A stretch of DNA of 64,000 nt from Prosopocoilus inquinatus (Eukaryota; Arthropoda; Insecta; Coleoptera; Lucanidae), in contig CM069871.1 of assembly GCA_036172665.1 (NCBI GenBank), positions 5,952,001-6,016,000 of the forward strand. Direction: 5' to 3'. Both the position numbers and the translations under genes were made by a program. Under the pieces are notes generated by a model. That model saw only the letters and a program-made list of their open reading frames with translations. It did no database searches and had not been told where the DNA came from. This document shows, piece by piece, positions 16,682-60,256 of the stretch. Every line of letters begins with the position of its first letter. Position 1 is the first letter of the stretch.

Positions 16682-17975
16682 CGTGGGCTGCTGGAAAAGT
16701 TTCTGGAAACGGTATGAAAAAACGCATACAAAATTTGGTAAACGGTATCATTGTTTTTCGAAGTATTCGCCTTTGACGTTAATACATTTTTGCATACGCT
16801 CGAACCAATTTCTAAATCACGTTTTCCACTCTAAAGATGGTACCTCAGAAACCAGTGTCCGGAATGTTTCAACCGCTGCTTCACCCGACGAAAATCGCTC
16901 ACCACGCATTTTATTTTTAATATTTGGGAACAAAAAGAAATCATTAGGTGATAAATCAGGTGAATATGGACAATGAGTCATTAATTCAACATTTTTGTTG
17001 GACAAAAAATCAACTGTTTGACGGGCTGAGTGAGAGCTGGCGTTGTCATGATGGAGAATAATTCGTCGATTTCGATTGTTTCTTCTTATTTGATCGATGA
17101 CTTTAGGCAAACAAATTGTAGTATACCAATCAGCTTTTACGGTTTTTCGATCCTCTAAAGCCACGGTTGCTACATGTCCAGTTAAACCAAAGAAACAAGC
17201 AATCATTTGCTTCGCAGCACTGCGTGAAAGGACAACGTTTGTTGATTTTGGTTCATTTTGAATTACCCAAACGCTAGATTGTTGTTTACTTTCTGGCTCG
17301 TACGAATAGATCCACGTTTCGTCACCAGTTACAATGTTATAAACTAAATTTGAACGACATCCATTGAATTTCTTGAGCATTTCTCCGCACTATTTGACTT
17401 GAACTGTTTTTGCGCTTCTGTTAAATTCTGTGGGATCCAACGACTGAAAAGCTTTCGTATGTTCAAATGATCATGCAAAATCTGGTCTATTACTTTCATG
17501 TCAATGCGTAAGGATGCTTGAATCTCACGGTATGTCACACGTCGATCTCGTTCAAGCATTTAACGCACAGCATCTACATTAGTGGCAACAACAGATGTTG
17601 GTGGATGACCTTCACGAAATTCGTCACTGAGAGAGGTACGTCCACGCTGGCATTCGGCAAACCAATTATAAACACTGCTCTATGATGGTGCTTCATCTCC
17701 AAAAGCCAAATGAAGCCGATCGAGGCATTGTTTCGGCGTTAGACCACATTTGAAATCGTAAAAAATCATGGCACGAAAATTTTCACGCGAGATTTCCATG
17801 TTTACACAAAATTACTTTTTCTCAAATGCTGTACAAACAAAACTAGTTCACTTGGATAGGAACTGTCAATAGAATTATAGGCGAAAAATGTCAAATTTTT
17901 CAAATATGACAGTTGATAAACGCATTAAGCAATTTTAGACCTACCAGATTCCAGAAAATTTTCCAGCAGCCCACG
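16682..17975 (-). mobile_element. Full-length inactive mariner (Tc1/mariner, DD34D)
   Basis: The 1294-bp element has matching ends: CGTGGGCTGCTGGAAAAGTT on the left and its near-exact reverse complement on the right. About 25 of the first 27 bases agree. TA dinucleotides flank both ends (16680-16681 and 17976-17977), the hallmark target duplication. The length is the usual mariner length. The transposase relic fills the minus strand. The well-preserved TIRs with several coding lesions suggest an insertion of moderate age. The transposase motif text resembles vertumnana-type mariners, but I cannot assign a subfamily firmly. Confidence 0.97.
16748..17799 (-). pseudogene. Mariner transposase pseudogene
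   Basis: The ancestral product would cut and rejoin DNA at the TIRs, with an N-terminal helix-turn-helix domain and a C-terminal DDD nuclease domain. The start at 17799 opens MEISRENFRAMIFYDF, a normal mariner start. The catalytic residues are visible: VTGDETW (first D), HHDNASSH (second D) and SPDLSPNDFF (third D), with exactly 34 residues between the last two. The C-terminus ends GEYFEKQ at about 16748. The frame is broken by TAG at 17680-17682, TAA at 17560-17562, a frameshift near an A5 run at about 17406-17411, and TGA at 16817-16819. In the shifted frame a further stop sits at 17390-17392. It cannot make active transposase. The 1052-bp span matches the family's roughly 345-350 codons. 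Confidence 0.95.
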
Positions 17976-22031: not shown

Positions 22032-22103
22032 GCAGTGGGAATTTCGAGCTACGTTTCTGCTGAGCAAGCCGCAAATAGGGCTGAAACAGCTGTACAGAGG
22101 CTG
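22032..22103 (+). ncRNA. Hammerhead ribozyme, decayed copy A (type I layout)
   Basis: The copy matches the copy at 51538-51610 closely. Stem I pairs GTTTCTG (22053-22059) with CAGAGGC (22095-22101) over seven pairs, including two G-U. The core position 22060-22066 reads CTGAGCA where the family requires CTGATGA. Stem II is 22067-22082 with an AAATA loop region. GAA follows at 22083-22085, then the A-U and C-G pairs of a minimal stem III and a GTA triplet (22092-22094), so cleavage would fall after 22094. The two core substitutions should abolish activity. Hammerheads of this kind are known from Penelope-like retroelements, retrozymes and Schistosoma satellite DNA. No such element ORF is visible here. 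Confidence 0.75.
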
Positions 22104-24400
22104 TTTATAAGTAACACAGAAGTGTTAAGTTTTTAACTTGTTCGGACAAGTTTCAATGTGATCTGATTGGGTGAGTATAAAAACAGTATATCAGTAACAA
22201 TAACACATGCAAACATGTCGCAAAGAAACGGATTATTAAAAACGAAAATTACAAAAGGTAGAGTTGATTGAAAATTGGAATAAACTAAATGCAAATGTTT
22301 AAATAATAAGAAGATTGATGGTGGGTTTCACAAAAAAAAAAATTGTTAATCACAGATTAATGTAATTATCTGATTAAAGAACGAATTGGACGAAGTTAAC
22401 AGTAAATTTGAAACAACCAATTATATTGTTTCACCCAACCAATCACAGGCTTGAGACTTTCATGATCTTCCAAAGTGACTGCAATCTTAAACTGATAATG
22501 GTATGTTTCATTAGGCGTCGTATTTTTTTTTTTTTCATTTTAAAGCAAAACGTTACATTTTTAAAGTCTCTTAATTCAACAAGAAAACAACACTAACAAT
22601 AATAATAAACAATCAGTACCTATTATAATATAACTGGATCAATGTACGCTTGGCTTTATCGTAAGTAACCATCTCAATTGGCAATTTTCTTTCTTTCAAT
22701 GCGCACTAAATTTAATGGAATACTCTTGTAACACCCGTTACGTAAACAGCAGTTATTTTGTTTGAAGTCGTGAAATGTTCTTATGGAAAACCATTACGCA
22801 AAGCGATCATTATTTGCTAACTGAAATATGATGTGGTTATAAAACAATTTATGTTGGCACTTTCTCTACGTCTTTATTGCGGAATATTTTTAGAAGCAAC
22901 TAGCGATTCAGTAAATACCCTTTTATACTAATTAATTAATAACACTTATTACTTGTTGTACTGGAACAAACGCACAAATTGATGATATCAAATGATACTC
23001 CTGTACGCGAACCACACCCTTAAGAACATTCAGCGTAAGGGCTACGAAACTGTCAAATGGTATCGTTTATGGCGAACGTCGTTGTACATACTTGTTTCCA
23101 TCTATCCACGCAGTTTTAAAGAAAACCTTGTATAAAACAGTGGCGTGCATCTTCCAATCAATTTAAAATAAACCTTGTGAAGGGTTTGTTTTGCTTGTCG
23201 CTGCATTTAATTTATTTTATTAAAGAAAAAGCTTCTGACTTTGAGTTAAGAGGTAATATATATTAATTAAATATCACTTAACTCAGAAAAATAGCAAAAA
23301 ACAACTACGATAAAAACGTCTCGTAACAAAGATGAGGGCGTGAACTCATATACAGCCAAATATATTGCTCCATCCAACGACTATCGCAGTGTATTTTATG
23401 ACGGATTAAAGCCTCGCCTTTATATGATGATCCCAGAAAATTTCATTCTCGTCTAGAAATCTCTTTTCCTTGGGACTATTCAGTAAAGCTAAGTCGATAA
23501 TTCACTCTCAACAAAGACCGGCTGGGCATATGATAAGATCGGTGTGTGGAATGTTCGGCAATCATTCTAATCTTTATTTCGCCATCTTCTTTATTAGATC
23601 GCTTCAAATCAAGAGCGAAGATGCTGTTAGTCAGCAAGTTCGCGTTACATACCATAAAGAATTACATAGCCACCGCACAGGTCGAACAAAGCAGAGGAAT
23701 TCGTCAATGCGATGGCTCCCTTCTTATTTATGAACCTAGAACGTGCAGACACAATATCACGAATGCAGGAGCTTCAGTTTAAATTCTTTCTTCCGCTTTA
23801 AACGTCCTCTGACTTTTATGCACACACACATAATCCCCAGACACGTCTTTTTACTACGAGGAGGTTTTCAGGTTGAGGTGGCGCCATCGCCAGTCTGAGC
23901 ACAATTTGAAAACGAATTATTTTGATTACGAGAAACTAGAGAGCGTTCAGTATTTTGTATGTACAATTGCAGAGGTGTAATAAATTTTGTTTACCTCCAC
24001 GCTCAACTTCTTACAAAGCAGCATTTTATTACCCCATCATTCAAAAATTGTGTTCCTTCTTTTGAACAAGGCAAGTGGGTCATGGTCCAACTTCAACTTG
24101 CCTCGACGCTCGATACTAAATAAAGACAATCACAGTAAATTGTTTGTAGCATTGATATTTGTAGCTCCAAACGAGGATTTATTTTATTACCCTTTTACAC
24201 ACGAGTCATATCTTATTCAGGTATCAAACAATTTGAAATCCTTGCAATTCTTTTCTGTTTTGTTGCAAAATATTTTTCTCTGTTTTCCTCAATTCTATCC
24301 TGTCGCTTATTCTTGTGGTAAGATGCTTTAGAGTCCTTCTTTGGTACGTATCGTGGTATTCGTTTGGGAATTCCTTTACTTGCTCTTACCCATTTCACCA
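22104..24400. other. Non-coding DNA with one isolated GGCGCCATC box
   Basis: About 2.3 kb with no supported gene or repeat apart from GGTGGCGCCATCGCC near 23877, which resembles the array box. Open frames at 23470-23782 and 23987-24331 have no recognisable domain. Confidence 0.35.
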
Positions 24401-30419: not shown

Positions 30420-31690
30420 AAACTGATGAAACGATGAATCAATGAAGCAATGGGATGATAAAACTATGGATTGATGTTGCAATGAATCGATGAGGTGATG
30501 AGTCGAGGCAATAATGGATTAATGAAGTGATAGATCGAGGGATTAAAGAAGCAAGGGATGGATGAAGCGTTGGATCGATGAAATATTAAAGCGATAGATG
30601 GACGAAGCGATAGATCATTGAAACAATGATGAATCGATTGACCGATGAAGCCATGAATCGATGGATAAATTAAGCGAACGGTCGATGAAGTGTTGATCTG
30701 ATGAATCGATGGATAAATTAATCGAACGATCCATGAAGCCATGATCGGATGGATCGATGGATAAATTAATCGAACGATCGATGAAGCTGTAATCCGATGA
30801 ATCGATGTATAAATTAATCGAACGATCGATGAAGCTATAATTCGATGAATTGATATATAAATTAATCGAACGATCGATGAAGCTATGATCCGATGAATCG
30901 ATGTATAAATTAATCGAACGATCGATGAAGCTATAATCCGGTGAATCGATGTATAAATTAATCGAACGATCGATGAAGCTATAATTCGATGAATTGATAT
31001 ATAAATTAATCGAACGATCGATAAAGCTATGATCCGATGAATCGATGTATAAATTAATCGAACGATCGATGAAGCTATGATCCGATGAATCGATGTATAA
31101 ATTAATCGAACGATCGATGAAGCTATGATCCGATGAATCGATGTATAAATTAATCGAACGGTCGATGAAGCTATAATCCGATGAATCGATGTATAAATTA
31201 ATCGAACGATCGATGAAGCTATAATCCGATGAATCGATGTATAAATTAATCGAACGATCGATGAAGCTATGATCTGATGAATCGATGTATAAATTAATCG
31301 AACGATCGATGAAGCCATAATCCGATGAATCGATGTATAAATTAATCGAACGATCGATAAAGCTATGATCCGATGAATCTATGTATAAATTAATCGAACG
31401 ATCGATGAAGCGATGATCCGATGAATCAATGAATGGATGAACGAAGCTATGGAACGAGGAAGCGATGGAATGGTGAAACGATCAATGAGGCAATGGATGG
31501 ATCAGATGAATGAATGATTCGATGGATAGATAAAATGTTGGATCGGTGAAGCGTCGGATGGATCGATAAAACGATGTATTGATTAAACGATTTACCGATG
31601 ACGCGATGGATCGATGGATTGTTGATTCGATGAAGCGATGAATCAATAAAATGATGGATCGATGGATTGAAGAAATGCGACGGATCGATA
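30420..31690. repeat. GATGA-type degenerate repeat domain around the minisatellite
   Basis: Variants of GATGAATCGATGGA, GATGAAGCGATGGATCGATG and similar words occupy the whole interval at roughly 12-24 bp spacing. The ordered 48-bp array at 30665-31432 lies inside and is built from the same words. It therefore looks like a higher-order repeat amplified from a shorter one. Confidence 0.85.
30665..31432. repeat. 48-bp minisatellite, 16 units
   Basis: ATAAATTAATCGAACGATCG recurs exactly every 48 bp from 30665 to 31385, giving 16 units. Most units differ by one to four bases; the edge units are more diverged (ATAAATTAAGCGAACGGTCG at 30665). Because 48 is a multiple of three, the minus strand stays open and would read a 16-residue repeat such as SSIVRLIYTSIHRIIA for over 280 codons. 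I take this as a by-product of unit length, since no promoter, splice context or family supports a protein. Confidence 0.95.
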
Positions 31691-44020: not shown

Positions 44021-45695
44021 GTGTCTGTAAAAAGTTTAAGACCGATAAGCATTTTACCCACGTTTTCTAAAATATTTGAAAGAACTATTCAATCACAACT
44101 TATTAAATACCGGGTGTCCCGCGCCATGTGCTCACCCTTCTAGAATCTTTATTTATGAATCGATTAACCTGAATTTTGAAGACAGTAAACTAAACAAAAA
44201 ACGGAATTTTTCGACATATTGATAGTCGTCATAGGACTTCCGATTTCCCCGGAAGTGATATCAACTTTCTTATTTTAAATGGAACACCCTACATATTTTT
44301 ACATATTTAAAATCTACGGATCATTACGAGTCCGAATACGTATCAATTGTTAATTTTGGTTTCCATGACAACGAAAAAAAAACTTTCTTATTTTTCAATC
44401 TAGAAAGCTATGAATCGCATTTTTTCGATCTAATGCGATCAAGTGTTTCAAGAAAATCATTCCTTTGATGGTATTTTGATTTTTAACATTTCTACAGTAT
44501 TTGAAATTTTCATTAGCTCTTAACTCCTTTTTTTCGCATACGCTGATACCAAATACGTCATATTTTCTTTGAAAATAATTTAAAATAGAGCATGTCTTAC
44601 TGAAATTTTACACCCCCTTTATTTCAAATGACTTTCAAAGAAAATATGACGTATTTGGTATCAGCGTACTCAGAAAAAAATGTTATGTTGAACTAAGTCA
44701 AGAAACATATGAGGTTCTATCGAAAAAGATGATTTAAGAGCTAATGAAAATTTCAAATACTTGAAAAATGTTAAAAATCAAAATACCATCAAAGGAGTGA
44801 TTTTTTCGAAACACTTGATCGCTCGCATTAGATCGAAAAAATGCGATTCATAGCTTTCTAGATTGAAAAATAAAAAAGCTTTTTTTTCGTTGTCATGGAA
44901 ACCAAAATTAACAATTGATACGTATTCGGACTCGTAATGATCCGTAGATTTTAAATATGTAAAAATATGTAGGGTGTTCTATTTAAAATAAGAAAGTTGA
45001 TATCACTTCCGGCGAAACCGGAAGTCCTATGACGACTATAAGTATGTAAAAAATTCAATTTTTCGTTTAATTTATTGTCTCCAAAATTCAGGTTAATCGA
45101 TTAATAAATAAAGATCCTAGAAAGGTGAGCACATGGCGCGGGACACCCGGTACATTGAATCTAATGAAATTTTACCAAATATTCAATCTGGATTTAGGGC
45201 AGCTTATAGTTATACTACAGCCTTGCTTAATATAACAGACGACATTCTAAAGGCCACTGATAATCAGCAATTAACAGCTCTCGTCCTGCTAGATTTCAGT
45301 AAGGCTTTCGAAAAAAAAACCATAATATACTATGTTCCCTATATATATATATAAATATATATGCATCACAGGAGAATCTGTGGAATTAATTAAATCTTAT
45401 TTATCCAGTCGAACCCAATCAGTTGTTGTAGATTCACTTAAATCTAATCCGCTTGCTGTATCTCAGGGGGTACCTCAAGGATCCGTAATAGGACCGTTGT
45501 TATTTTCTATCTACACCTCACAATTTTTCCAAAACATTAAAACTTGCAGTGCACATATTTATGCGCGGACGATACGCAATTGTATTATTCTTTTAATCCG
45601 TCTGATTGGCGTGAAGCTGTTTCACACATAAATAGTGATCTGGATACATTATACAGGCAGATTCAGGCAACCCTTTCATTAAAAGTTTACGGACT
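44021..45695 (+). pseudogene. CR1/jockey-like reverse transcriptase pseudogene, split by a fold-back element
   Basis: This encodes part of the palm and fingers of a non-LTR retrotransposon RT. Before the insertion: RPISILPTFSKIFER (44036-44080). After it: LPNIQSGFRAAYSYTTALLN, then LVLLDFSKAFE (catalytic block A) near 45270-45310, then GVPQGSVIGPLLFSIY near 45466-45516, then DTQLYYSFNPSDWREAVSH. The YADD catalytic box near 45560-45573 carries a two-base insertion (TATGCGCGGACGAT) that shifts the frame. Another lesion and an AT dinucleotide run follow the DFSKAFE block. The 44110-45150 palindrome interrupts the ORF after codons reading QLIKY; removing it and one TA restores the reading QLIKY-IESNE. 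The endonuclease and 3' end are absent. Confidence 0.9.
44110..45150. mobile_element. TA-flanked palindromic element, 1041 bp
   Basis: The ends are CCGGGTGTCCCGCGCCATGT and its near-exact complement, flanked by TA at 44108-44109 and 45151-45152. Almost the whole element is an inverted repeat: arms of about 470 and 515 bp around a loop at about 44580-44635, with one extra segment of about 65 bp in the right arm. It interrupts an RT ORF, so both boundaries and the TA duplication are confirmed by the host reading frame. No transposase is encoded. An internal block TTAAATGGAACACCCTA and the phrase CAACTTTCTTATTTTAAATG are shared with the neighbouring palindrome. Confidence 0.92.
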
Positions 45696-49258: not shown

Positions 49259-49872
49259 TTAGAAAATCCTGCTATTTACAGACTAACTATTACTATCTCT
49301 GACGATAAGTGACCAAAAACGGATGTTTATTATTACAGATATTACAGGACAAATTTACATGACAATTGTCACAGAATTTTTATTTTTTTCTTCTTCTTCT
49401 TAACGTTTCTTATCCAGGGCAAAGAAACCACTGCTCCGATTTTTCTTCTTTCTGTAACACATGTTAACACATCTTCATTTGTTGTTTTTAAGTTTTAATC
49501 TTAATTCCTCCTTCACATTTTGGAACCGCTACGATTAATTGGTTACATTTCAAATCCCGCGCCCAAAATAACTCGAGAACTGGCGCCCTCATTTGAATTC
49601 CTTTTTAATCTCATTGAATTTTGTCCACTGAAGTGATTTGAGTTGCTGCCTGCTCTTAAAGGCGTCACCGCAACGATATTCTCAAATTAATTAATAGGAG
49701 TACTATTTGATTTCAATAAATAATCCCAGTAATCCCACTGTTTAGCATAATTTTAAGTTAGAAAGGGATGAAATTCTGTAAAAGTTTCATTCTTATAAGG
49801 AGATTTGGTATTGGGGTGTTGTTAATTGGGATTTTGGGTAGGGAAATTTTATTTGAAAAGGAAGGGTCTTGG

Positions 49873-50213
49873 TGTGATTCGGAATCAATAAGACCTAAAT
49901 TACCAATTTGTTTCAATTGTTTATCTGCTCTTGTTTCTGAGATCCAAAATCTATTTGATTTTTTTTTTTTTTGAAATCACAACCTGCTGATTTTTTCCCT
50001 TTATTTAATACTTCGTTTAATTCTCTAAATGGCCAGAGTTAGGAAAAATGGTTTACGTTGATATTCGAGATTTGTTTTCATGTTTTTAAGGCAACTTTTC
50101 TTTAGTTCTATCTGAAACAAATTCGTATTGTAGGTCTTATTGGTCCTAAATTACACACCGAATTTCAAACACATACGTCAAACAGTTTTGGATATTTTAA
50201 ACCAGTTCCATAC
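49873..50213. repeat. Internal copy of the 47998-53508 terminal regions, both orientations
   Basis: From 49873, CAATTTGTTTCAATTGTTTA, TCGTTTAATTCTCTAAA and AAAAATGGTTTA match the reverse complement of 53240-53440. From about 50090, TTGTTTTCATGTTTTTAA and ACGTCAAACAGTTTT match 53140-53480 directly. It looks like a shortened element with two facing ends, lacking the outermost 15-20 bases on the right. Confidence 0.6.
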
Positions 50214-50219
50214 ATTGTG

Positions 50220-51350
50220 AAGAGCAGACTAAAAAATTGTGACCAAAACGTAATTGTGGGAGAAGCCTACGAAAAAAAAAGCCGAAAGAAGAACAGTGGC
50301 ATAAACAGTTGAAGAAGGTTTGAAACTTTTGAGAGAAAAAAAGGGACCACTGAATTTACCATAAATACTACTGAAAGGAAAAACAATGGACTAGATCGAA
50401 ACCCTTGAACATGGTTAAGATCAAAACTTCTGAAGACGACTTAGAAAAGAAGTCGAAAGATGGAAGACGAAAACTTTCCAGTGAGATAGTTTGCAGAAAC
50501 AAAATCAGGTACGTTTGGTGAAAACAACTGAAGAGGAGAATGGAAGACGAAATGGCTTAAATAAGACTATTGAAATTAATGAAGTACGAAAGTGCAAAAC
50601 CTCCGAGAAGGGTTAGAATTGAAGAAAATAGCGAGTTTTTTTTAAAACTTAATAAAGAAAGAAAAGGAGCAACCATTCCAAAAAAAAAAAGTAGTTGGAC
50701 AGTGAGAATGGGATCTATCGTACAAACTGCCTAAAGGATATTGCTAAAAACAATTGAAGAAGAAAGTGAAGAACAAAATGGATTGTGTAGAAATAGAACA
50801 CTTGAGGAGAACACTGATGTTCAAAAGTTCTGAGTTCTGAGAGGAACAGAATTGATAAAAAAAAGAGTAGTTGGAAGAAATGTTCGTTTCAGATCCGCCG
50901 AAAATAGTCAAAAGAAGACGTTGACAGAAAGATACACTCGAAGAAAACTTCCGAAGAATGCTGCAAGTGAGTTTTCTTTTGAAAAAAAAAAATCGAAAGA
51001 GGGAAGACGAAATGTTCTAATGAACACAATCAGATAGGAGGAGAATGAAAGACGAAATGGCTTTTAAAAAAGACAATTGAAGATAACAAAGAAAAAATCA
51101 CTAAAAAAAAACACGTTGTCGAGGAGGCCCCAGATTGGGCGGAAACGGTTGTACGTGGCGTCGCTTGGCAAAACCTTTGCAATCGAAGCTAACCTGCAAT
51201 AATTATATTTTTTATTTTTCTGAAAAAAAAAACGACAAAATACGAAACATGCGGCGAACAAAAATAAAATAAAAGGAGGCTGGCGTTTCTGGGGAAGAGA
51301 AGATCAAATCGCCGGCAGAAAACAAAAAAAAAAAAACTGGAAAACTTGAA
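50220..51350 (+). repeat. Purine-rich degenerate sequence
   Basis: Words such as GAAGACGAAA, GGAAGACGAAATG and ACAATTGAAG recur irregularly (for example GAAGACGAAATGG at 50545 and GAAAGACGAAATGG at 51046). No domain is recognised. It resembles the strand bias of the 3.7-10.6 kb blocks, although I could not align it with them. Confidence 0.4.
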
Positions 51351-51537
51351 CAGTTGTGACAGCAGAAAGGGTTAACATGATAAAAAGAAATAGAAAATAT
51401 TCATATTAAATAGAAAGAAACAAAAACGCGTAGGAAATCGTTCGTTATTCAATTGTCACCCTTAGCTTACAAAAAATGATGATGATAATAATAAGAAAAT
51501 TGTTGAAAATCGTTTTTGATTGTAGTTGATCCCTCCA

Positions 51538-51610
51538 GCAGTCTACGTACAGCAGTTTCGGCCCTATTTGGGGCTTCATCAGCAGAAGCGCAGCTCGAGA
51601 GTTCCACTGC
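51538..51610 (-). ncRNA. Hammerhead ribozyme, copy B with intact catalytic core
   Basis: Read on the minus strand. The core CTGATGA is at 51582-51576. Stem II and loop occupy 51575-51560: GCCC pairs with GGGC around CAAATA, the same loop type as in the Schistosoma hammerhead. GAA follows at 51559-51557, then A-U and C-G pairs of a minimal stem III around TGCT, then GTA (51550-51548), so cleavage would fall between 51548 and 51547. Stem I is weakened: GCTTCTG faces CGTAGAC with two mismatches and two G-U pairs, but an outer GCAGT (51610-51606) can pair with ACTGC (51542-51538). All invariant core bases are present, so residual activity is possible. No Penelope-like ORF is adjacent, and the copy may be a stranded retrozyme-like or element-end fragment. 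Confidence 0.82.
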
Positions 51611-52030
51611 AAACCAAAACGTACTTGACCAAGGATATTCGCAATTGTTAGGTCAAAAAGCGTTCGTAAGATGTCGCCGTTTAAGCTGATAATAAAGAAA
51701 CGCGTGAGTTATTTGGTCTTCAAAGGTTTCTCGTCTTTTCTTGTTTGCAAAAAGAAACCAAAACAATAATAATAATGAAATGCAAAGAAGCAAATGAACA
51801 TCGAATGTTAATTTTAACGGTTTTCGTTGGATTTCATTTATTTTCTTGCGTAGCACTGGTAGAAATAAATTATGAAATGAAAGAGAACAAACACAAGTGT
51901 TCTTTTCAAATGCTTCGCGCCGAAAATCGTCGACTTTTCATTTGTTTTCAGTTTTGTTTTTATTTGCTTCAGGTGCTCCTGGGTGAACGAGAAGCGACGA
52001 TCGTCTTTTGTTTTTCGCTCATCTTGTTCT

Positions 52031-52582
52031 GCATTTTGTTGGTCATTTGTTTCAACAGTTCTTTTTTGTTTGTTTTTATCTAATTAATTTAATATCTCTC
52101 AATGTCACTCAATTTTTTATTAAAAAAATTTATCATTCTGTTTTTAGTTATTTTATAGATTAATTTTGAAATCTTTGGCTATTTGTTTTTTTTTTGTAAT
52201 TTCTACCATCACCACCATCTAGGGCTGGAGAGTTCTCGAGTTATCGGTTGGTTCATAGATGGCGCGACTACTTAAAAAAATACCGATTGACTATCATTGC
52301 ATTTTGTTGTCGTTTGTTTCAACAGTTCTTTCTTGTTTCTTCTCATGTAATTAATTTAATGTCTCTCAATGTCACTCAATTTTTTATTAAGAAAAATGTA
52401 TCAATCTGTTTTTAATTATTTTATAGATTAATTTTGAAATCCTTCGTTATTTCTATTTTTGATTTTGTAACTTCTACCACCATCACCATCACCATCTAGG
52501 GCGTGTCTGGAGACTTCTCGAGACTTTGGTTGGTTCACAGGTGGCGCGCGACTATATAAAAAATTACTAAGCGACTATCATT
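52031..52582. repeat. 268-bp tandem duplication, two copies
   Basis: GCATTTTGTTG starts at 52031 and 52299. Both units run through TCTCTCAATGTCACTCAATT, a CACCATCTAGGGC block and a GGCGCG box (AGATGGCGCGACTA at 52257, AGGTGGCGCGCGACTA at 52540). The (ACC)n/CATCACC run is longer in the second unit. Confidence 0.9.
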
Positions 52583-53510
52583 GGGAGCGTTCAGCCGACG
52601 TAGCAGTTGACGAAAACCAGAAACGTGTTTCATTTATGATGCGCTGAAACATGTTGGAACAGTTGAACGTTATAATAACTGTCAATAAACATTTGATCAC
52701 TGGTTTGAGGTTAGGTTTATGATTAATTATTCTAGATTATAAATTTACAAATTATTTCCAAAAAAAGTGAATTACTTGAAGATGACATGAACTGGAATGC
52801 GATTCAAGTTGTTTCTCAAAATGTTACAAATTTCTGTAAATACCTGTAAATGTACTTTTTGTAACCAGCTGATTATTTTATAAGTACAAAATCCTTTAGT
52901 AGGAGCATTCTTTGACCAGTTTTGCTTAACCATTAACCGTTCAGTGTACCAAAAAAGTCACTATACGTACTCAACAGTTGCGTTCGCTGAACGCGGCTAT
53001 TAACACTGAGATTTATTTTATTAGATTGGCAACACTTTTCAATATTTATGTTTGTATACCACTGTAAAACTCTAACAATCAGAATAGTTTACATCCTTAT
53101 TTTTACCAATACTTAGCAATTTTCTTTAATTCCCCGTATTTGTTTTCATGTTTTTAAAGCAACTTTTATTAAAGTTTTCTTTAATTCTATCTTAAGAACA
53201 ACCCATAATCTTGTGGCCTTCCTGTTTTTCTGCTAAAACTAGTATTTTTGTCGAATATCAACTGATAAACCATTTTTCCAAAGTTTCTCATTCAAAAGTT
53301 ATTTTCTCGAAAATTTTCTTATGTAATAGATAGATATTTTTATGTGGTCGTTTAGAGAATTAAACGAACTATTGAATAAACAGATAAACAATTGAAACAA
53401 ATTGATAATGTAGGTCCTATTGACTCTAAACCATATACCAAATTTCAAATAGATACGTCAAACAGTTTTTGAAATATTAAGCCGCTTCCACACTTTTGCC
53501 CTTCCCTGTA

Positions 53511-58122: not shown

Positions 58123-60256
58123 CATTTTCCAAGAGAAATTTCAGACCACGAAAACTTGCTCTTCTTAATCTGCGCGATCTAAATTAGAAATGCAGGAAGG
58201 AAACGTACGTCTGGGTTCGATGTGAAGGTTAGGTTTGCTCTTAATTCCCATTAACAAGTTTGCCATCGCATAAATATAAACGTGATGCAACTTCGCTGGT
58301 CTAGTTAGGACAAGTTTAATAGACGTAGGGTCAAGTATAATATAATCTAATCAGATTGTAGGTTCGTGTTACAGAAGTTCACGTACAATATTTTAAGCGC
58401 TAAAGAGTATATGTAATCAAATTAGAATGTTACTATTTTGACATGGAGTTGTATTAGGTAAATCAATTTGCTTCTTTCTTACTGCTCCTCAAGATTTTAG
58501 GAATATGTAACCAAGAGAATTTTTCTAAGTACGCCTATGATGGTAACTAGCGACCGGAATCACATATTTCGACGTCATCGTGTATGCAGGGCGCACTGTC
58601 TTACCAGATTATTCCCAAGAGGATTGCGCAATGAATAAAATTAAATTTGTCACTTTTATAGCGTTTTTAATTAATTGCTCCAGAGCACTCTGAGAGTATC
58701 TCAATTTTTTCCACTCAAATAAAATCGTTAGTCTTTTTTTTTGTTTTTCATTCATTGTGTCATGGTTGATTTCATTTTTTATTTTTTTCCTTTGTCAACT
58801 AGAATTATTGTTTTTTTTTAATTTTGTAATTTTCTTTTGTTTTTTTTATATTTTCAAGTACTTTCCAGAGAAACAACAAAAACATCAAAAAAAAAGAAAC
58901 TTATAAGTACAGATCGGAATCGCTTATTTTGACATCGAGTTATGTATTCATCATGCTATTGTACGATGCACTAAGAAAAAAGGAACTCGTTACTCGCATA
59001 AAGCAATTTCAAACTCACTCCTTGAATTATCCCGGAAAGGATACAAATGATTTTGTCTTTATTTCACAAAGAAATCACACGTTACTTGACGACGCCAAAA
59101 TACGTAAAAAATTATTGATTCGATTTAAGACATGAATATTTATTTATAAGACTCATCGATTAAAATTTCTAAAAAAAAATTGTGTTTGATTGATTTGGCA
59201 ACCTAATAATTTTATTGCAAATTGTTTGTTATTCAAGAAAATATAAACAACGAATACCACCGTTGTACACGACCGCCAAGAAGTATTCAGGATTAGCTTT
59301 TAATATACAGGCTGTTTCATAATTATGTCGACAAACTGAAACTATTTTTACCAATAAACTTAATCAATCATTTCAATCAATCAACGTCTGCACGCAAAAT
59401 TTTTAATGCATTCTAGTAGGTAATTTCGTTATTTACAACTTGTCTATTCACTTCATTGACGCTGATAATAATATTCAGTAAATGTAAATTGTCAAAGAGC
59501 CCTTGAGGGCTATTTTAGCGCCAAAATTAATTTGCAGAACTGTTAGGGTTATTAAAATTATTTAATTAATTAATTATTTATTAATTTTCGTTCAATTAAT
59601 ATTCGCATTATTTATTTATCGCATTTTTTTAATTTAAAAATTGTTAAAAATATATTCTCTTATTTATTTTTTACGAGAATTTATTATTTTCAGTTTTTTT
59701 TATATCATATATGTATTTATATATTTTCGTTGGATTTGTATTTTATTTATAGTGAATAGATAAAACAGCGACATCCTACGATCGCTTTTTGACCTGACTT
59801 TGCAACAATTTTTTTTTTATTTATAGTATTTAAAATATTTTAAAATAAACTAGGTATTGACCAGACGACATTTGCAATAACATTTTATTTTATTTTAATT
59901 ATTATTTACTTTTTAGCCCTAAACCACTCAAATCTAGCCCTATTTTGGTTTCCGTCTAGCTCTTTTCTAAATGTAGAGTTGGCATCATTGGTTTGAACTT
60001 TCTTCGTGATGAGGTTCCAATTAAGGCCGAAATAGCTGTACAGCGGATCCTTTAGAGCCCCACTGAAATCTGAACTGACCCCGCTACAAGTTTCAGTTTG
60101 AGTGATGGGCATAATCGAATTATTTCAATAATCGAATTCAGATTCCGATTCGATGACTCAAATAATCGGATGATGATTCGAATTATTTTTAATTCGATAC
60201 GTAACATTTCAATGATTACGTAAAAATATGATCATTTCAGTTATTTTCATTCAGGG
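58123..60256. other. Very AT-rich non-coding DNA
   Basis: No gene is supported. A weak direct repeat (CGGAATC-C-TATTT-GAC-TC) occurs near 58555 and 58913. TACAGGCTGTTTCATAATTA near 59308 looks like a solitary TA-flanked element end. Confidence 0.35.

Follow-up and report, generated by a model that had tools for sequence, protein, structure and literature searches.

The minus strand of a 64,000-nucleotide stretch of the Prosopocoilus inquinatus genome (contig CM069871.1; the whole stretch is called the window here) carries a hammerhead-like motif, which raises the question of whether the motif is genuine and, if so, which element carries it. A sequence-only reading had placed CTGATGA (51582–51576), a GCCC/GGGC stem with a CAAATA loop, GAAA (51559–51556) and GTA (51550–51548) in hammerhead order on this strand, and this arrangement was confirmed. 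The window sequence alone did not settle a chance origin. CTGANGA followed by stem II and GAAA arose 0.25 times per window in 4998 first-order Markov windows, and a fuller hammerhead descriptor was found 171 times in total over the same windows and at one locus, 51538–51610, in the real one. The Rfam model Hammerhead_1 (RF00163) scored the motif at 17.5 bits, short of its gathering score of 34 and with the cleavage side aligned in another register, and no family reached its gathering score when the whole 64-kb window was compared with Rfam. The minimum-energy fold of the copy did not have the hammerhead form (z −0.83; an equally stable fold was reached by 44 of 200 shuffled sequences). A covariance score under the threshold was the outcome that the sequence-only reading had said would count against it; the low score of the window copy is nevertheless not decisive, because its relatives pass.

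These relatives were found by searching the 650-Mb assembly. RF00163 gave at least eight matches at E ≤ 1e-3 and at least seven above the cut-off among the 74 of 83220 candidates that were scored; two of the seven loci (L005 and L006) are the same in sequence, and L003 scored 36.3 bits. Inspection by eye showed that six of the eight matches carry the family's 3′ tail, with an end like TTGCAACWA, and that L005 and L006 carry it in part. Among 20 loci checked, copies of the main family mostly scored under the Rfam cut-off or were missing from its list (e.g., 25.6 bits for L018 and 21.5 bits for L027). The window DNA itself had at least 63 matches, from 40 scored of 3236 first-look candidates, one being the window copy and the rest 80–92% identical to it. 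A 47-nt ribozyme probe allowing up to three mismatches found 1407 genomic sites, 17 of them perfect and 1390 with one to three mismatches, and its reversed control found none; at least two pairs among the perfect sites are duplicated loci (L035/L036 and L044/L045). The element is a short mobile repeat with a genomic copy number well above one thousand. Owing to this genome-wide repeat family, chance resemblance can be dismissed, and the hammerhead-like motif is real. The absence of a recognised host element, as first read, no longer holds either, as the host is the dispersed repeat family itself. A search of a phage collection gave no match at E 1e-5, and the family was absent among the matches listed for the literature on beetle hammerhead ribozymes.

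The window copy is a decayed single copy at 51500–51687 (minus strand; locus L009), 89% identical to the family consensus and ordered head, mid, hammerhead and tail. The type I hammerhead unit, taken with stem I and its internal loop, spans 51532–51599 and scored 75.6 bits with R1, a model built from 35 cores with the window copy among them, so that this is the score of a training sequence. On the minus strand, the catalytic core CUGAUGA (CTGATGA in DNA; C3 to A9) lies at 51576–51582, stem II (AGCCC/GGGCC) with its CAAATA loop at 51560–51575, GAAA (G12 A13 A14 A15.1) at 51556–51559, and the GTA triplet at 51548–51550. The predicted cleavage site falls between A17 (51548) and C1.1 (51547), the site proposed earlier, and coincides with the position homologous to the cleavage site of the family consensus. 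The conserved core letters of hammerheads are C3 U4 G5 A6 N7 G8 A9, G12 A13 A14, A15.1-U16.1 and H17. All of them are present in the window copy, with A at position 17. The catalytic core described as intact is therefore complete in its letters; the stems around it are not, as an A.C mismatch occupies the base of stem II at 10.1-11.1 (A-U in the consensus), and two of the seven inner stem I pairs and one pair of the outer stem (G.G) are unpaired. Because of the A.C mismatch and the two stem I mismatches, the window copy is probably an inactive or weak ribozyme. A special kinship of its stem II loop with the Schistosoma satellite hammerhead had also been suggested; CAAAUA is the Rfam type I consensus, and hence no such kinship follows.

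The letters of the family consensus allow a complete type I hammerhead, with every core letter and three stems. Stem I consists of GCUUCUG/CAGAGGC, an internal loop CUAC/UG and then CUCGAG/CUCGAG; stem II of 5 bp (AGCCC/GGGCU) with the loop CAAAUA; and stem III of 2 bp (AC/GU) with the loop AGCU. The cut is predicted after GUA, which is replaced by GUC in one subfamily. In an alignment of 35 cores, from which four rows identical to kept ones had been dropped, 84.7% of the cells were paired under the hammerhead structure; when the partners were slid, this share did not exceed 46.7%. Both sides had changed in 21 cells, against a shuffle mean of 10.1 in a test that is inflated by kinship among the copies, and 11 pairs showed a change on both sides, against 6.9 in the shuffles and 9 with partners slid by −1. 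Older copies allow a more direct comparison. At 10.1-11.1, the base of stem II, G-C is usual in hammerheads. The pair is A-U in the consensus of the main family and G-C in the older relatives L002, L004 and L007; in two rows of older copies U-A replaces C-G at 10.3-11.3, and their remaining differences are at N7 and H17. Stem II pairing thus appears to have been kept in the older relatives through changes on both sides, these copies being worn and their intact form a reconstruction. Energy minimisation gave stems I and II for L018 and L008, but placed a GCUG/CAGC helix over the core and stem III; for L021 it gave a different fold.

After leaving out 5′-only pieces and repeated flanks, 59 of 67 distinct copies (loci L009–L058) share a common 3′ end point. 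The 15-nt 3′ flank of the copies is 87% AT, against 65% for the window, and includes a T-rich run of about eight bases. In our reading, the T-rich run is part of the target duplication in clear cases such as L026. Target duplications of 10–15 bp were seen in several copies, clearly in L026, L011, L037, L058 and L021, and are not evident in many other single copies. Over 49 copies, the similarity of a copy's own two flanks was 7.11, as compared to 6.10 for re-paired flanks (sd 0.17; the highest of 200 being 6.57). The duplication is imperfect in the window copy, where its probable 5′ part lies at 51688–51700 (minus: TTTCTTTATTATC; flank score 10.5) and its probable 3′ part in T-rich DNA at 51481–51499 (minus: TTTTCTTATTATTATCATC).

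A module map of 52 loci (L003, L008 and L009–L058), which are best matches and not a random sample, showed three main arrangements. The first is a single head-mid-hammerhead-tail copy of about 190 nt, to which the window copy belongs. The second consists of foldback pairs placed head to head, many within one larger amplified repeat; this larger repeat gave no Pfam match in six frames (L016). In the third, hammerhead-tail-S-head′-mid-hammerhead follow one another directly in units of about 270–312 nt with a shared linker S. Such direct tandem units were found in three of these 52 non-randomly sampled loci (L003, L035 and L044), and also in the duplicates L036 and L045. At L008, L018 (identical to L033) and L048, neighbours on the same strand are joined by other junctions. 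The single copies run through the cleavage site to the common 3′ end, and hence the inserted template seems to have been uncut RNA or an opened circle.

Taken together, the feature in the window is, with a probability of about 0.7, an inactive or weak copy of a family that is non-autonomous, spreads through RNA and is of the kind known as metazoan non-LTR retrozymes. The family is best filed as a new family of these retrozymes or as a close relative derived from Penelope-like elements (PLEs); the kind of element is already known from other animals, and the family itself is new. The earlier proposal of a non-autonomous, self-cleaving retroelement holds in its first part, given the dispersed family, the common 3′ end, the target duplications and the lack of a coding match, and finds no support in its second, self-cleavage, as far as the window copy is concerned. 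As described for Acropora, Mytilus and axolotl (PMC7229834), retrozymes have, like the present family, a type I hammerhead with a stem I internal loop and a loop II, short units, a G+C content below 50%, target duplications of more than 4 bp where these are clear, no coding match and PLEs in the same genome. The type I hammerhead here lies in a repeat within the 150–450 bp range (about 190 nt as a single copy and about 270–312 nt as a tandem unit), the family units have a G+C content of 0.39–0.46, the 49-copy flank comparison supports duplications above 4 bp, and the genome contains autonomous PLEs. Where it occurs, at three of the 52 mapped loci and their duplicates, the direct tandem unit has the arrangement described for these retrozymes (PMC7229834). 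Compared by that description, the family differs in that tandem units are found in few of the mapped loci and in that its stem II of 5 bp has A-U as the basal pair. The hammerheads of RF00163 and of the satellites of Schistosoma, newts and cave crickets (PMC7229834) share the core, the CAAAUA loop and the strand order with the family. However, its stem II is longer by 1 bp, the window copy scores under the gathering threshold, and the family is dispersed, with no long satellite array among the mapped loci.

In the cycle inferred for the family, read-through transcripts of intact copies would fold into the type I hammerhead and self-cleave 3′ of the GUA (or GUC) triplet. A monomer of about 270–312 nt, which a host ligase may circularise, would be released from dimeric transcripts. 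The reverse transcriptase of a PLE, the putative helper, or of another non-LTR element would then copy the RNA, which would be inserted at AT-rich sites with a duplication of 10–15 bp.

PLEs of the same genome were identified by a GIY-YIG search, in which 150 of 2232 candidates were scored. The frames reach 788 aa, and many are present as inverted pairs. The 788-aa ORF of L081 carries both RVT_1 and GIY-YIG, and the full-length PLE ORFs are near-identical to one another. Among 120 listed of 1050 protein relatives of this ORF, the named organisms were all hexapods (Chrysoperla, Allacma, Aedes, Tribolium and Molorchus). Pattern matching placed a minimal hammerhead-like motif, in which GAAA is followed by a palindromic UACGUA, in the terminal repeat of L081 (1949–1986, plus strand) and also in L079, L080 and L082–L084; Rfam listed no hammerhead in L079, L081, L082 and L084. 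An older PLE family, with 27–33% identity to the young one across most of its pieces, contains a different minimal motif, again by pattern match (L061 at 2139, plus strand; L064 at 2140, counted on the reverse strand), and no hammerhead was listed by Rfam in its pieces. At L060, a copy of the hammerhead repeat that Rfam leaves unlisted lies close to a fragment of an SLX1 gene; the named proteins nearest to this fragment are mostly those of beetles (56% to Popillia japonica). No literature on PLEs with hammerheads in Coleoptera was found.

The copies could instead be terminal-repeat and "tail" fragments of an autonomous PLE, extinct or unfound, with the hammerhead at the junction of terminal repeat and ORF. 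Such a junction is described for Poseidon of Anolis, in which reverse transcription starts 111–118 bp into the ORF (PMC11167929). An internal start of this type would explain both the common 3′ end, which by hand count on the consensus lies about 80 nt past CTGATGA, and the AT-rich sites. By the same source (PMC11167929), the hammerheads of Poseidon resemble those of the family in being of type I, in their very short stem III and in their inverted arrangement, and its insertions likewise lie at AT-rich sites and stop at a common internal point; inverted pairs occur among the PLEs of the beetle as well as in the hammerhead family. The family consensus is also open in one frame over 65 codons. 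A meaningful open frame through the ribozyme was rejected, however, as at least one of the six frames is open in 452 of 2000 shuffled sequences and the 65-codon peptide has no match in Pfam, PDB or protein databases. The present hammerhead was also missing from the terminal repeats of the six young-PLE loci and from the older pieces examined, where other, minimal motifs occur instead; in L082 and L080, copies of the family hammerhead lie outside the PLE. Among the loci examined (150 of 2232 candidates scored), no ORF with reverse transcriptase and GIY-YIG was linked to this hammerhead. According to PMC7761336, the hammerheads of PLEs are minimal forms without helix III or without loop-loop contacts, whereas the stem I of the family has an internal loop. 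An origin from PLE fragments is therefore considered unlikely, though it would account for several properties of the copies.

It is conceivable, at a similarly low level of confidence, that a SINE-like or PLE-derived element inserts RNA left uncut by its own, otherwise well-formed, type I hammerhead. The ribozyme would then serve some step other than the circle-mediated spread proposed for retrozymes, such as the release of monomers, translation or a protein-assisted cut that follows reverse transcription. In the account given for Poseidon of Anolis (PMC11167929), unprocessed RNA served as the main template in vitro. An ordinary SINE moved by a LINE, with the hammerhead as a passenger domain, appears quite improbable: single copies of about 190 nt, duplications of 10–15 bp in several of them, T-rich DNA past a common 3′ end and a broken LINE-type reverse transcriptase within the window would suit it, but direct and inverted arrangements that share a linker are atypical of a plain SINE, and inspection by eye found no Pol III boxes. 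A chance likeness, or a protein-coding exon on the plus strand (51526–51665) read backwards, is regarded as refuted by the count of near-identical hammerheads against an empty reversed-pattern control, whatever the frequency of the loose motif in simulated windows and the splice-like sites at the exon ends, the repeat family ruling out the exon and the target duplications, paired changes and relatives above the Rfam cut-off pointing the same way.

The retrozyme-like family described here bears on an open question: by which enzyme hammerhead repeats are mobilised in animals, and whether their spread requires cleavage by the ribozyme. A large, partly young hammerhead family with older relatives stands beside near-identical full-length PLE ORFs in one insect genome; hence, both the mover enzyme and the need for cutting become testable in an insect.

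The window contains further members of the family. A second hammerhead on the plus strand (22043–22110) scored 69.8 bits with R1 and is outside its training set, and a third, older copy lies at 59992–60056 (plus; 32.0 bits). A partial core of an older relative, covering model positions 17–53 only, is present at 51118–51154 on the plus strand (21.3 bits), about 380 bp from the window copy and on the opposite strand. Two diverged direct copies of a repeat of about 270 bp, with no R1 hammerhead match, occupy 52035–52583, about 350 bp from the window copy. A sequence present in inverted and direct copies (49872–50216 and 53345–53496) flanks the hammerhead region like the ends of a larger element, the longest inverted pair being 87% identical over 53 nt. 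A Pfam scan of 44–59 kb in six frames found only a remnant of RVT_1, and PDB scans of two frames in this region gave only weak matches (E 0.024 or worse). The remnant, at 45380–45565 (plus), is of LINE type with a broken frame (E ~2e-6, below the curated cut-off); it had been considered as the host element and was rejected, its letters being those of a broken LINE-type reverse transcriptase. Elsewhere in the window, an open frame of 190 aa at 16817–17389 (minus) resembles a mariner transposase, and a 48-bp tandem repeat of about 16 copies, open in two frames, extends from 30653 to 31431.
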